The translations under genes and the position numbers were made by a program. Below, one piece after another: positions 4,950 to 30,266 of a stretch of DNA of 30,351 nt. The DNA is taken from positions 1-30,351 of IMG/VR virus record IMGVR_UViG_3300032315_000666; one strand, written 5' to 3'. The DNA is from a virus. Within the stretch, counting starts at the first letter, position 1; every line of letters starts with the position of its first letter. The notes beneath the pieces are model-generated. The model saw only the letters and a list, made by a program, of their open reading frames with translations, did not search any database and had not been told where the DNA came from.

Positions 4950-4963
4950 GGCTAATGAGGTAA

Positions 4964-12001: not shown

Positions 12002-13861
12002 ATGGCCGAGCCCGAACCATCGAATGTAGCGCCCTGGTATCTACGTAATATCAACCAAGCGTTAGAACTTAACGAAGATACCGGACAGGTATTTGTTCGC
12101 ACTGGGTTTACGGGTAATATTGTTATTAGCGGTAATGTTAACATTCCCGGCAATGTTGACGCACATGTTTCAGAAATTGGAACAAGCGGGGAACTAACAG
12201 TTCCTTGGATGCCTGTCAGTATTGACGGCAACAGCAATGTTACTATATCAGGTGGCAACGTCAATGCTGCGGTTACCGGTACAGTAGCAGTTAGCGGCAT
12301 TACAGGTAACATTGCGGGTATCACCGGCAATGTCACTGTAGTAGATGGTGGCGGAAGTATTACTGTAGATGGTAATGTAGGTGTTACAGGAAATGTTAAT
12401 ATTGGCACAATGCCAAATGTTAATGCTACTATTACAGGAGGTAATGTCTCTGTATCAGGTAATGTTGGCGTTACGAGTTTAGGAAATGTCGTACTCACAG
12501 GAAACACACTTCCAGTAAGCGGTAATGTGAATGCCAATGTCAGTGGTAGCAATGTCATTGTGTCAGGTAATGTTGGTGTTTCAAGTTTAGGAAATATAAG
12601 TCTTGCAGGAAACGCATTACCTGTTACGGGTAATCTTACTGCGACTATTGATAATAATGCCAGCGTAATTATTTCTGGATTCAGCGGTGCTACTAGTGAT
12701 GCGTTTGGTAGATTGCGTGTAAGTGAACCCTACACATTATTTGACACTAATGCAAGATACTACGACCACGCGCAGTTTAGTAGTACTGTTAATGGCACCG
12801 GTAATGTGACTTATGTTGCAGCACAAAGTTCTTTCCAACTTAATGTAGGCTTGTCCGCAGGTGACTCAGTGATAAGAGAAACTAAGAAAGTATTCCCTTA
12901 CCAGCCGGGCAAAAGCCAACTAACATTGCTTACATTCTGTATGAACACCCCAAAGACAAATCTACGCCAACGTGCAGGATTGTTTGGTGCTAATGATGGT
13001 GTATTCTTTGAGAATGATGGCACATTTAACTATATGGTTATTCGTTCAGGTTCTACCGGTGTAGAAGAACGAGTAAGACAAGATGCTTGGAACGGTGATA
13101 GACTAACCGGAACAGGTGGTGCAACAAACCCATCAGGCATCGCACTATACCCAGATCGTACACAGATTTATTATGCCGATGTTGAGTGGTTAGGTGTAGG
13201 AAATGTTCGTGTAGGCTTTATCATCAACGGCACTTATATTTTATGCCACACATTTCAACATGCTAACCAACCTGGTAATACGAAAGTCTATATGACTACC
13301 GCTACATTGCCTATACGCTATGAAATCACTAATGCAGGCGCAACTAGCGGTGCTAGTATGATGACGCAGATTTGTAGCACAGTTATCAGTGAAGGTGGCT
13401 ATAACAGTTTCGGAACTACACAGACCGCAGGTACCGGAACTACAACAAAAAGACTATCTACAGGTGGCGTTTATTATCCGGTAGTGAGTATCAGACTTGC
13501 TCCCACTAGATTAGATAGTATTGTTTTCCCTAGACAGATTGATGTATTGAGTACCAGTGTAAACTATTATCGTTGGACATTGTTGCAAAATGCCACATTG
13601 ACTGGCGCTACTTTTGCAGGAACCAGTCCAACTGGCACCGTGCAATATGATTTGGCTGCAACCGCTGTCAGCGGCGGCTTAGAAATTCAATCAGGATATG
13701 CCGCAGCCAGAGAACTTACTCAACTGAGTACTGTAGATTTCTTCCAGTTCCAGTTAGGAAGAACACTGGCAGGTGTTAGTGATGTTGTCACCTTAGCATT
13801 AGCGGCAACATCAAATAACGCTGATGTATTAGCTGAATTAGGCTGGCAAGAATTAACCTAA
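12002..13861 (+). CDS. Fibre-like virion protein with GNV repeats
   Basis: This 619-residue protein has residues about 36-220 as degenerate short repeats built on GNV (TGNVNI, SGNVGVSSLGN, VSGNVNANVSG), a pattern of beta-structured fibre or decoration proteins. The remaining 400 residues form a Thr/Ser/Gly-rich, beta-type domain (for example GLSAGDSVIRETKKVFPYQPGKSQLTLL, described by its first and last parts) that I associate with conserved structural proteins of marine T4-like phages. It has a late promoter, and the terminase gene follows. The start is the ATG just after the terminator T run. An exact position in the virion (tail fibre or head fibre) cannot be told. Confidence 0.7.
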   Translation: MAEPEPSNVAPWYLRNINQALELNEDTGQVFVRTGFTGNIVISGNVNIPGNVDAHVSEIGTSGELTVPWMPVSIDGNSNVTISGGNVNAAVTGTVAVSGITGNIAGITGNVTVVDGGGSITVDGNVGVTGNVNIGTMPNVNATITGGNVSVSGNVGVTSLGNVVLTGNTLPVSGNVNANVSGSNVIVSGNVGVSSLGNISLAGNALPVTGNLTATIDNNASVIISGFSGATSDAFGRLRVSEPYTLFDTNARYYDHAQFSSTVNGTGNVTYVAAQSSFQLNVGLSAGDSVIRETKKVFPYQPGKSQLTLLTFCMNTPKTNLRQRAGLFGANDGVFFENDGTFNYMVIRSGSTGVEERVRQDAWNGDRLTGTGGATNPSGIALYPDRTQIYYADVEWLGVGNVRVGFIINGTYILCHTFQHANQPGNTKVYMTTATLPIRYEITNAGATSGASMMTQICSTVISEGGYNSFGTTQTAGTGTTTKRLSTGGVYYPVVSIRLAPTRLDSIVFPRQIDVLSTSVNYYRWTLLQNATLTGATFAGTSPTGTVQYDLAATAVSGGLEIQSGYAAARELTQLSTVDFFQFQLGRTLAGVSDVVTLALAATSNNADVLAELGWQELT

Positions 13862-25625: not shown

Positions 25626-26144
25626 ATGAATTGGTTAACACTTGTGAAGGGTAGTATCCCTTCACACTCAGAAGACATCGCAGAAAATCTCGAAAGAGCA
25701 ATGACTGACTTGCAAGGACTGGATGAGATTGATGCACATGGGTGTGCGTTAGCGGCTGCAATCGCTTCGGGCAATGGCGGCTTAGCAGAAGAAATCGCAA
25801 TGAATAGTCCATTGTTTGGGACTCAGGAACGTGAAGCGGCAAAGACGGCCGCTTCCCTTACAGCGGTAGATGATGTGTATAGTATCTATCTATGGCATGC
25901 GGATAAGGAGCAAGTAGACCTGACTCTATCTAATTTTTCGTATAATGGACATGAAACAAATGGAGGAATCACTCCAAAACAGTATGGAATGTATGTGTTT
26001 GCATCAACGCTGGTCTATAAGAATTCAGTCAATACCGGAAGGATGATCAATACATTGAAGGCTGAAGGGGTAACTGACAGTCAGATTCAAGCAATCGCAA
26101 AAATCGCAGCAGTTATGTACGCAATCAATAGAATCATTCTTTAG
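25626..26144 (+). CDS. AhpD-fold (carboxymuconolactone decarboxylase-like) protein lacking the catalytic cysteines
   Basis: This 172-residue, mostly helical protein aligns by eye with alkylhydroperoxidase AhpD. An N-terminal SEDIAENLERAMTD is like the AhpD start, CALAAAIASGNGGLAEEIA corresponds to GTALASALAARNPALLRAIA, EAAKTAASLTAVDDVYSIY to the AAAAIMAMNNVYYR region, and LKAEGVTDSQIQAIAKIAAVMYAI to the C-terminus. Where AhpD has NGCGMCIEAH, this protein has VYKNSVNTGRM, with no Cys and no catalytic His. The only Cys is in DAHGCALA. I infer a pseudoenzyme or a new function. AhpD is the reductase partner of peroxiredoxins, and a peroxiredoxin gene is 350 bp upstream. The 3' end overlaps a minus-strand gene by 11 bp. 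Confidence 0.65.
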   Translation: MNWLTLVKGSIPSHSEDIAENLERAMTDLQGLDEIDAHGCALAAAIASGNGGLAEEIAMNSPLFGTQEREAAKTAASLTAVDDVYSIYLWHADKEQVDLTLSNFSYNGHETNGGITPKQYGMYVFASTLVYKNSVNTGRMINTLKAEGVTDSQIQAIAKIAAVMYAINRIIL

Positions 26145-27099: not shown

Positions 27100-27128
27100 T
27101 TGACATCTGAATGAAAGGACTATATAAG
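27100..27128 (+). promoter_or_regulatory. Putative sigma70-type promoter at the head of the tRNA region
   Basis: TTGACA at 27100-27105, a 17-bp spacer and TATAAG at 27123-27128. A 10-bp palindrome CGAACGTTCG lies at 27148-27157. No gene follows for 80 bp, so this may drive the RNA cluster. Confidence 0.5.
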
Positions 27129-27207
27129 TTAGAAGATGATGAGTTGACGAACGTTCGAAAAACAGCCGTTAAAACATCATGTTATAAACCAGGACTAAAT
27201 AAACTAT

Positions 27208-27345
27208 ATGATTACTAAATGTTCGATATCGCTGCAACAGCACATGCTCTGGGGAAGAAAAACCTCAATGGAATCGGTTGCGGACGTATATCCAACAAGC
27301 ATTCGCGGCGCCTTTAATCTATTAGAGGATCCAGGAAACAGGTAA
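27208..27345 (+). CDS. Possible 45-residue protein
   Basis: The frame starts MITKCSISLQQHMLWGRKTS and ends LLEDPGNR. CTAAATAA (TAAATA at 27196-27201) lies 6 bp before the ATG, close to the 5-bp late-promoter spacing seen elsewhere, and there is no Shine-Dalgarno. A terminator follows. No homology is recognised. Confidence 0.4.
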   Translation: MITKCSISLQQHMLWGRKTSMESVADVYPTSIRGAFNLLEDPGNR

Positions 27346-27370
27346 ACATAGATACATTTGTTTATTTTGA

Positions 27371-27405
27371 CCCTGGGATTCGCAAGATTCTCAGGGCTTT
27401 TTGTT
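27371..27405 (+). terminator. Intrinsic terminator
   Basis: CCCTGGGA (27371-27378) pairs with TCTCAGGG (27389-27396, one G-U pair) around a 10-nt loop, followed by CTTTTTGTT. It separates the last small protein gene from the structured RNA region. Confidence 0.75.
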
Positions 27406-27660: not shown

Positions 27661-27677
27661 GAAAGAGAGGATTGCGC

Positions 27678-27751: not shown

Positions 27752-27776
27752 CACAATCCTCTCGGTACCATAAAAA

Positions 27777-27866: not shown

Positions 27867-27945
27867 GCATCTGTATGCCGCCTGTCTTCGAAACAGGAGA
27901 AAGCTAATTGGATACATGTAGGTTCGAGTCCTACCAGATGCGCCA
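27867..27945 (+). tRNA. tRNA-Arg(TCG)-like gene without a D arm
   Basis: Acceptor GCATCTG/CAGATGC and T stem GTAGG/CCTAC are perfect, CCA is encoded and the anticodon arm CCTGT/ACAGG has loop CTTCGAA (TCG). Only seven bases (TATGCCG) lie between acceptor and anticodon stem, so the D arm is missing. The variable region is 20 nt and contains a D-loop-like AATTGGATA. It is probably a rearranged gene; function doubtful. Confidence 0.55.
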
Positions 27946-28035: not shown

Positions 28036-28127
28036 GTCTCCTTAACTTAGCCGGATAGAGCGCCTGTCTTCGAAACAGGAGAAAGCTAATTGGATACATG
28101 TAGGTTCAAATCCTTCTATCTGCGCCA
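28036..28127 (+). pseudogene. tRNA-Arg(TCG)-like gene with unpaired acceptor
   Basis: This copy has a D arm (ACTTAGCCGGATAGAGC), the same anticodon arm and the same 20-nt variable region as the copy at 27867. The 5' acceptor GTCTCCT and 3' acceptor TATCTGC form at most two pairs. A 47-nt segment (28061-28107) is identical to 27879-27925. CCA is encoded. Likely a damaged duplicate unless it is edited. Confidence 0.55.
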
Positions 28128-28208: not shown

Positions 28209-28216
28209 AAGTTTAT

Positions 28217-28282
28217 GGGGCCGTCTTGCATGTCTATATTCCAAAAATAGAAGTAACCAAGAGAAAAAATGCGGTCCCGCCA
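28217..28282 (+). pseudogene. Minimal tRNA-Trp(CCA)-like gene
   Basis: Acceptor GGGGCCG/CGGTCCC (one G-T pair) ends in G plus CCA. An anticodon-like hairpin, CTAT/ATAG, carries TTCCAAA (CCA anticodon) with an A-A mismatch below the loop. There is no recognisable D arm and no TTCGA T loop; total length is 66 nt. Either decayed, or an armless tRNA-like RNA. Confidence 0.4.
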
Positions 28283-28286
28283 ATTA

Positions 28287-28861
28287 AACGATGTCAAAAA
28301 TAATTCTCAAGCAGGCAATTTTTTGATTGACATTATTCCTGTTATGTCGTACATTGAGAATGTAGAGAGTGACAAGAGAAGTTCTCTGTTCTTTGACATC
28401 GTTAGAAAGAACAGTAAAGTTGTCACGGGTTGTGGGTAAAGAGATGCAGGGTGAAACCTGATGAACTCACGACTCGTGGCACACTTTACGTCAATTCTAA
28501 GAGTGCATCTGGCCAGAGCATGTCTTAGTATCGGAGTAGTTTGTAGCTCAGTGGTAGAGCAGGGTCCGTGCGTTGGTTCGAATCCAACCAAACGAAACAA
28601 GAAGACCTTAGTCTTAGGGTTGACGTAAAGTGTGTTTTCGTGACTATTCAAATATAACTCGGCGCGTGTTGTGCACGGTAAGTCCAAAGATTTTGGTGCT
28701 CCGATTAAGTGGCGAATGAAGTTATGCTAACCCATACTTCAGTTCTCGGTTAGGAGAATAGGGAAGTGCAATTCTTCCAAGCATCGCCAATAAGGGTCGC
28801 AATCAGCCGTATGAGTGATTGTGTGATTGAAGGTAACATGGTTCCTTCTTCCGAATGTTAC
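28287..28861 (+). ncRNA. Candidate large ornate non-coding RNA
   Basis: This 575-nt stretch has no credible gene and is densely self-complementary. From 5' to 3': a perfect 12-bp repeat AACGATGTCAAA/TTTGACATCGTT (28287-28298/28392-28403) enclosing ATTCTCAA/TTGAGAAT; a 17-pair hairpin (28421-28437/28465-28481, several G-U pairs); a 22-pair helix (28480-28501/28613-28634, two G-U) enclosing GTCTT/AAGAC and a tRNA-like domain; GTCACG/CGTGAC (28422-28427/28639-28644); CCAAA/TTTGG; then a three-hairpin junction closed by TGGCGA/TCGCCA (28710-28789) with complementary loops; CAATCA/TGATTG; and GTAACAT/ATGTTAC, ending at tRNA-Phe. Some helices exclude each other. The setting and size recall GOLLD or ROOL RNAs. 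A TTGACA-N17-TACATT lies inside (28327-28355). Pairing is seen; one single RNA is inferred. Confidence 0.45.
28537..28596 (+). other. tRNA-like domain without anticodon arm, inside the large RNA
   Basis: TAGTTTG pairs with CAAACGA (six of seven), the D arm GCTCAGTGGTAGAGC is canonical, and the T arm GTTGG/CCAAC carries TTCGAAT. Only ten bases (GGGTCCGTGC) lie where a 17-nt anticodon arm plus variable loop should be, and CCA is not encoded. It is enclosed by GTCTT/AAGAC and a 22-pair helix. Confidence 0.6.
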
Positions 28862-28937
28862 GCCGAAATAGCTGATGTGGTCTTAGCGCCTGATTGAAGC
28901 TCAGGAGATGCTCGTTCGATCCGGGCTTTCGGCACCA
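28862..28937 (+). tRNA. tRNA-Phe(GAA)
   Basis: Acceptor GCCGAAA/TTTCGGC, a 3-bp D stem GCT/AGC, anticodon stem CCTGA/TCAGG with loop TTGAAGC (GAA) and T stem GCTCG/CGGGC. CCA is encoded. It starts at the end of the large structured RNA. Confidence 0.9.
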
Positions 28938-28972
28938 AAAATAACCCTTACTGTTACAGTAAGGTAAAGAAT

Positions 28973-29729: not shown

Positions 29730-29823
29730 GCTCCCTTAGTTTAGCGGTAAAACACCTGGCTTATATCCAGCATCGTCTCCAGATTAGAGAGCGTCACCGG
29801 TTCGAATCCTGTAGGGAGTACCA
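29730..29823 (+). tRNA. tRNA-Ile(TAT)-like with long variable arm
   Basis: Acceptor GCTCCCT/AGGGAGT, D stem GTTT/AAAC, anticodon stem CTGG/CCAG with loop CTTATAT (TAT), T arm ACCGG/CCTGT with TTCGAAT and one mismatch. CCA is encoded. The variable region is about 24 nt with its own stem CGTCTC/GAGAGCG, a type II feature foreign to Ile tRNAs. Confidence 0.7.
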
Positions 29824-29829
29824 AACTTG

Positions 29830-29946
29830 TTAGATGAACACTGTTCAGGTAGAAACTAAACTAGTGAAGTCATATTGCCGCTTCTTCAGTAACTAGTGAG
29901 GGTTCGAGTCCCTAAGGCGGCTTCGTTTCTTACAGTGTTCTTCTAA
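29830..29946 (+). other. tRNA-like acceptor/T-arm minihelix inside a long inverted repeat
   Basis: GCCGCTT (29877-29883) pairs with AGGCGGC (29915-29921), and AGGG/CCCT carries TTCGAGT, but D and anticodon arms are absent. The unit is enclosed by TTAGA/TCTAA, GAACACTGT/ACAGTGTTC and AGAAAC/GTTTCT, about 20 pairs in all. Two ACTAGT palindromes (29860, 29892) lie inside. Confidence 0.5.
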
Positions 29947-29956
29947 ACAGTTTATT

Positions 29957-30042: not shown

Positions 30043-30084
30043 ATTTTTTCTTCAAAACTAATAGATTATTTATAGATTTTGGTT
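30031..30084 (+). repeat. Direct repeat, copy 1 (tRNA-Leu 3' end plus downstream)
   Basis: This 54-bp segment starts TCTTGGGCACCAATTTTTTC, includes the tRNA-Leu 3' acceptor and CCA, and ends ATAGATTTTGGTT. It recurs 183 bp downstream with one small difference in the T run. Confidence 0.85.
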
Positions 30085-30213: not shown

Positions 30214-30266
30214 TCTTGGGCACCAATTTTTTTTCAAAACTAATAGATTATTTATAGATTTTGGTT
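30214..30266 (+). repeat. Direct repeat, copy 2
   Basis: A 53-bp near-identical copy of 30031-30084, including CTTGGGCACCA, but without a tRNA in front. The 130 bp between the copies (30085-30213) hold no gene; a GTTGTG/CACAAC stem is the only structure I see. Confidence 0.85.

Follow-up and report, generated by a model that had tools for sequence, protein, structure and literature searches.

A candidate rRNA-operon-type antitermination leader and a conserved structured RNA core at the head of a phage tRNA transcription unit

The window analysed here, by which we mean the whole stretch of 30,351 bases (IMG/VR virus record IMGVR_UViG_3300032315_000666, positions 1 to 30,351), is a fragment of a T4-like tailed phage that encodes a large terminase, a gp32-like SSB, UvsX and UvsY. 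The nearest relatives of the terminase are found in the Pseudomonas PA5oct group, phages of about 285 kb, at 49% identity. The right end of the window is occupied by a tRNA cluster, for which ARAGORN called 10 tRNAs and RF00005 gave 12 matches. Several other features were seen around these genes. Within 27100–27403, a strong promoter (TTGACA-17-TATAAG) and, behind it, a hairpin resembling a terminator, with a T tail (about 27365–27403), may possibly give a separate short transcript ahead of the cluster. The sequences flanking tRNA-Gln (27665–27674 and 27754–27763) are perfectly complementary over 10 nt, as in a leader-trailer helix; rrn-like helices of this kind round every tRNA were sought, and were observed for 23% versus 22% at random, so they are not general. 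Two duplicated tRNA-like genes that lack a normal D arm (27867–27942 and 28051–28124) share an identical anticodon arm (CCTGTCTTCGAAACAGG), and ARAGORN calls neither. An armless tRNA-Trp(CCA)-like gene at 28217–28282 has a 7-bp acceptor, an encoded GCCA and an anticodon stem-loop, without a normal D or T arm; a sequence resembling it adjoins tRNA-Val in three related contigs (L117, L196 and L201). Past tRNA-Leu(GAG), a 40-nt direct repeat (30045–30084 and 30227–30266, 98% identical) surrounds a structured-looking stretch.

A sequence-only reading had proposed that 28287–28861, in the middle of this cluster, is a single RNA of about 575 nt of the GOLLD or ROOL class. As it had stated, there is no credible gene in the interval, the longest ORF being 126 aa long, with a TTG start, on the − strand. 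The very high self-complementarity that it reported was borne out by folding of the + strand, at −183.5 kcal/mol versus −151.9 +/− 6.1 for dinucleotide shuffles (z −5.17, none of 100 as good), and was weaker on the − strand (z −3.79). From the predicted start site onward (28362–28800) the value was z −5.31. The end of the interval at tRNA-Phe was also correct, since this gene begins at 28862. We conclude that structured non-coding RNA is genuinely present in the interval, which holds several functional parts and is not one RNA. These parts, and two features further downstream, are the following:

28327–28355, + strand: sigma70-type promoter, TTGACA-N17-TACATT (10/12 matches)
28364–28387, + strand: boxB-like short hairpin AGAGAGTGACAAGAGAAGTTCTCT where the transcript is predicted to start, with pairing conserved among relatives
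28388–28408, + strand: boxA-type antitermination signal GTTCTTTGACATCGTTAGAAA, a word shared with rrn leaders, whose 19 examined viral matches are in tRNA clusters
28425–28477, + strand: G-U hairpin (arms 28425–28437 / 28465–28477) with an inner hairpin bearing a GAAA loop, from the fold; not conserved in L117
28480–28634, + strand: 22-bp stem module (arms 28480–28502 / 28612–28634) with a tRNA-like cap; z −6.18 when the long stem is folded alone
28537–28596, + strand: tRNA-like domain capping the 22-bp helix (RF00005, 42.5 bits, E 5.5e-6)
28689–28798, + strand: 3′ core with a closing helix, two kissing hairpins and a T-arm-like hairpin (28762–28778), from covariation and covariance model R1
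28799–28861, + strand: spacer that contains two short hairpins (one being GTAACAT/ATGTTAC, 28833–28861) before tRNA-Phe, from the fold; mostly identical in L117
28862–28937, + strand: tRNA-Phe(GAA), called by ARAGORN, the first tRNA 3′ of the leader
29823–29953, + strand: second stem module (AGATGAACACTGT / ACAGTGTTCTTCT), tipped by a T-arm minihelix; z −2.25

The G-U hairpin and the multi-hairpin 3′ part were present as first described, as was the 22-pair helix (23-nt arms, 91% complementary), and the tRNA-like domain had been overlooked. The 12-bp repeat (28287–28298 and 28392–28403) exists and is perfect, but it is probably not a helix of the RNA: its 3′ arm lies inside boxA, and its 5′ arm is upstream of the conserved promoter and was unseen in L196 and L201, so that this arm is probably not transcribed with the region. 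The Rfam scan of the interval gave nothing plausible besides the tRNA-like match, which supports the suggestion of an undescribed element.

The first homologues, contigs L117 and L118, were retrieved via a neighbouring gene (25626–26144) and share the locus. Their flanks (28210–28408 and 28759–28962) are 95–96% identical to those of the window, and the intervening 350 nt (28409–28758) are exchanged for unrelated sequence that again folds into long stems. Use of the conserved 3′ part as a search pattern then yielded L196, L201/L205 and, later, L275/L278, all in tRNA clusters. No homologue of the region was obtained by blastn in phage records or by a search via the recombinase UvsX, and no credible match to the leader, the stem or the core was found in named phage records.

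Five distinct homologues of the core could be aligned, and 94.6% of cells pair, kissing strands included, versus 41–49% in slid controls. Sixteen of 44 pairs were changed on both sides, versus 5.3 in shuffles (0/500 reach 16), the sample being small (five sequences) and the structure having been drawn up with these sequences in view. The loops able to kiss are CTAACC (28727–28732) and GGTTAG (28748–28753) in the window, and CTGACC:GGTCAG in most homologues, so that a G-C pair is replaced by A-U through changes on both strands. No variation was seen in the third hairpin, GGAAG-TGCAATT-CTTCC, whose loop resembles a T-loop. The covariation check that had been called for in homologues thus gave strong compensatory changes in these five sequences, which supports the earlier preference for RNA over DNA repeats. 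Model R1 detects the core in those five-homologue lineages only, and the core was absent from the large phages L083, L088 and L100 in which it was searched. A weak R1 match in contig G043 (E 0.014) was rejected as a core, since it proved to consist of a boxA leader and a stem module. Judged from these alignments, the core represents a new family of conserved, folded RNA.

In each of the five core homologues, the core is preceded by a promoter, then a short hairpin, then GTTCTTTGACATYGTTAGAAA (in L275, CATAGTT), and the order promoter-boxB-boxA-core-tRNA is identical in the window, L117, L196, L201 and L275. The pattern TTGAC[AT]-N17-TA...., placed 29–33 nt before boxA as in the window, recurs in L117, L196, L201, L275 (two leaders), L277 and L329. 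A promoter with a 17-nt spacer whose −10 end lies 29–33 nt before boxA was thereby found in eight leaders from seven lineages; the background for the promoter pattern is 1.7% of random 90-nt stretches. Pairing of the boxB-like stem is preserved in L117 and, with a varying sequence, in L196, L201, L275, L277 and L329. The hairpin is missing from the leaders of L276 and L281. Several internal boxA copies without a promoter were seen in L282, L284 and L288.

BoxA is the site at which NusB/S10 loads in rRNA leaders, and the word resembles it. A scan of bacteria for the boxA word, with one genome per species, gave 38 matching stretches, mostly in Sphingomonadales and other Alphaproteobacteria. The form GTTCTTTGACATYGTTRGA precedes 16S rRNA in Sphingomonadales, and the 16S start was located at +179, +195 and +226 from the word in three cases (a Sphingobium, a Rhizorhabdus and a Sphingomonadales MAG). 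Most of the remaining alphaproteobacterial matches are at most about 300 nt from a contig end, where collapsed rRNA operons would be expected to place them. The word is mostly alphaproteobacterial, whereas the terminase has its nearest relatives among Pseudomonas phages. A separate Bacteroidales group was also noted, in which several genomes (L238, L244, L248, L255, L261, L264 and L267) share a near-identical repeat with GTTCTTTGACATTGTTGGA, with no recognised 16S start there.

Among viral contigs, the longer boxA word occurs in 20 stretches. All 19 that were examined lie in tRNA clusters, and a tRNA starts 29–460 nt 3′ of each; the remaining stretch, L200, comes from the L118 contig. In L275, L277, L284 and L288 there is a boxA with a tRNA about 30 nt behind it and no core between. 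Of 11 distinct stem modules retrieved independently of boxA, three have a strict boxA no more than 150 nt upstream and eight have none in that range; the background frequency is 1.07% of stretches. Large phages retrieved solely by the tRNA-like pattern lack the boxA word of the window.

The tRNA-like domain at 28537–28596 consists of an acceptor, a D arm and a T arm, has only 11 nt between the D and T arms instead of an anticodon arm, and is not followed by CCA. It falls outside the tRNA family proper, as the RF00005 cloverleaf has an anticodon arm, and ARAGORN gives no call. In L117/L118 the 28480–28634 module is swapped for a different stem of the same kind, again bearing a T-arm, and L196 has no stem module. 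The second module of the window stands 3 nt 5′ of tRNA-Leu(GAG) and has the same base as a group of CTTATTAGATGA/TTCTTCTAATAAG modules, of which the first module has the geometry with a different sequence. The CTTATTAGATGA/TTCTTCTAATAAG module was found in 27 viral stretches, nearly all of them in tRNA clusters, often ending 4–12 nt before a tRNA. Its U.U mismatch is constant, and its inner stem covaries freely. Since the search pattern included the conserved base, the inner stem alone counts as covariation evidence. In modules that the pattern does not cover, the two sides of the base change together, to CTTGTTAGATGA/TTCTTCTAACAAG in L275 and to CTCATTAGATGA/TTCTTCTAATGAG in L329. The tips range from an ARAGORN-called tRNA-Thr (L333) to T-arms (L117, L275, L281, L323), and others have no tRNA likeness. 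Like the tRNA-like domains of the mascRNA type and of tmRNA, the domain of the window has a tRNA-like fold without a normal anticodon arm, but here the D and T arms are 11 nt apart and sit at the tip of a stem. The mascRNA model itself gave a match of 20.7 bits, under its cut-off, at 29877–29921. A three-strand switch between an upstream strand and the stem was considered and dropped: it was clear only in L117, L201, L310 and L323, and that of the window was equalled by 61 of 200 shuffles.

Neither GOLLD nor ROOL, for which the Rfam scan had been proposed, matches in the window. For GOLLD (RF02032, gathering score 150 bits) there was no match at E<=5 or E<=1; for ROOL (RF03087, 99.1 bits) there was none in the window or its relatives, and the model matched no genome searched. 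The window shares with ROOL the size class and the tRNA neighbourhood. GOLLD, which forms an RNA-only nanocage (PMC12286853), resembles the region in its location in phage tRNA clusters, its kissing loops and a tRNA on a helix within the RNA, but the core of the window is much smaller. Bona fide GOLLD, at 187–207 bits and each with an embedded tRNA, was found in the tRNA clusters of seven related contigs, and in two of them (L331 and L333) it stands 3′ of boxA and a stem module. Contig G042 carries the core (2224–2340) and a true GOLLD (12605–13068) at separate places; the element of the window is therefore not GOLLD, though it belongs to the same kind of operon. The proposal of a single GOLLD/ROOL-class RNA of about 575 nt thus found no support, the interval being made of a promoter, a boxB/boxA leader, a replaceable stem and a conserved core.

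A rival reading is a stand-alone stable phage RNA that acts as GOLLD or ROOL do and runs from about 28362 to 28798 or 28861, driven by the promoter and boxA, with the downstream tRNAs as passengers. The retention of a covarying kissing-hairpin core in five lineages would fit it, as would the GOLLDs at comparable spots after the boxA leaders of L331 and L333. We nevertheless find it unlikely, as the middle 350 nt are wholly exchanged between phages that are 95% identical on either side, L196 does without the stem module, and the coreless leaders of L275, L277, L284 and L288 reach a tRNA almost at once. Still less probable is a decayed or recombining tRNA tract, with pseudo-tRNAs for caps, leftovers of tRNA insertion for stems and no selection on structure. 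The hypervariable tips, graded from a full tRNA-Thr (L333) through bare T-arms (L117, L281, L323) to no tRNA likeness, are what it would predict, and other degenerate tRNAs do lie in the cluster (28217–28282 and 29877–29921); yet the stems stay paired across numerous sequence variants in which the base is fixed and the U.U mismatch always present, and both the covariation of the core and the conserved promoter/boxA spacing speak against it.

Very improbable, finally, is an element acting as DNA, either an inverted-repeat site of recombination or module exchange, or a coding region. The sharp swap of 28409–28758 among close relatives does resemble module exchange, but there are G-U pairs in the helices, compensatory changes are of the RNA type, and no ORF is credible; folding strand bias (z −5.2 versus −3.8) and core covariation already disfavour such an element.

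We hold it to be likely, from sequence and position, that an rRNA-operon-type antitermination leader, copied from bacteria, opens the tRNA transcription unit of the phage, followed by structured elements that probably serve in processing. Against this reading stand the leaders that lack boxB, the internal boxA copies that lack a promoter, the majority of stem modules with no strict boxA upstream, the large phages that lack this word, and the contrast between a terminase nearest to Pseudomonas phages and a mostly alphaproteobacterial boxA. Transcription would start from the promoter at 28327–28355, giving an RNA that begins near 28362 and opens with the boxB-like hairpin and boxA. Host NusB/S10 would bind boxA and render RNA polymerase resistant to Rho, so that the long untranslated tRNA array could be transcribed to its end. 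The long stem with its tRNA-like cap and the kissing-hairpin core would then lie between the leader and tRNA-Phe. The stems may be processing or insulating elements, cut by enzymes of the RNase III and RNase P types.

In the sequence, the leader of the window has the marks of an rrn leader (boxB-boxA, NusB/NusE complex): a boxA word identical to that of alphaproteobacterial rrn leaders, a hairpin directly 5′ of it and a promoter at the start of a stable-RNA operon, the whole apparently opening a long untranslated transcript. Unlike an rrn leader, it stands in a phage tRNA cluster, where tRNA-like-capped stems and a new core replace 16S. To our knowledge, Rho-free transcription of long untranslated phage tRNA arrays is unexplained, and no report of rrn-type boxA leaders ahead of phage tRNAs or tRNA operons was found in the open-licence literature. 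BoxA precedes rRNA and CRISPR arrays, and improves polymerase processivity on long non-coding arrays (PMC7862264, PMC10250234). Going by the account of Stringer et al. as cited in PMC7862264, the boxA of CRISPR arrays likewise serves a long non-coding array other than rRNA, that of Legionella (GTTCTTTAAAA) being similar to GTTCTTTGACA; here the array is one of phage tRNAs, and a boxB-like hairpin is present.

The chances are about even, in our estimate, for a broader proposal, that the tRNA arrays of large phages, together with GOLLD in some relatives, are operated as mimics of host rRNA operons through a copied boxB-boxA that captures the Nus machinery, the core being a new RNA family that works beside GOLLD. 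If so, phage tRNA clusters and GOLLD would be tied to the host machinery of ribosomal-RNA transcription, the boxA word might help host prediction, and the known RNA families would be joined by one that covaries and carries interchangeable tRNA-like modules.

Some minor observations were made in the related and in unrelated genomes. Each of the GOLLDs of L330–L336 contains a tRNA for Lys, Ile or Arg, and several of these are flanked by a complementary helix of the GGAGCAG/CTGCTCC type; the contig of L334 has a second, partial GOLLD match (L337). tRNA-like domains without an anticodon arm (8–17 nt from D to T) occur in unrelated large phages (L083, L085, L088, L090–L094, L098, L100), several of which are rich in tRNA genes, with as many as 61 tRNA matches in the record of L083, and L085, L088 and L100 have a further stretch of about 120 nt upstream of the domain in common. 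A general family of such domains was considered; the matches are real, but they were not used because their surroundings are not homologous to the RNA of the window. Two other RNAs were found within phage tRNA clusters, a manA RNA (RF01745, 62.9 bits) at 4952–5124 of L323 and a group I intron (61.4 bits) at 2290–2475 of L201.
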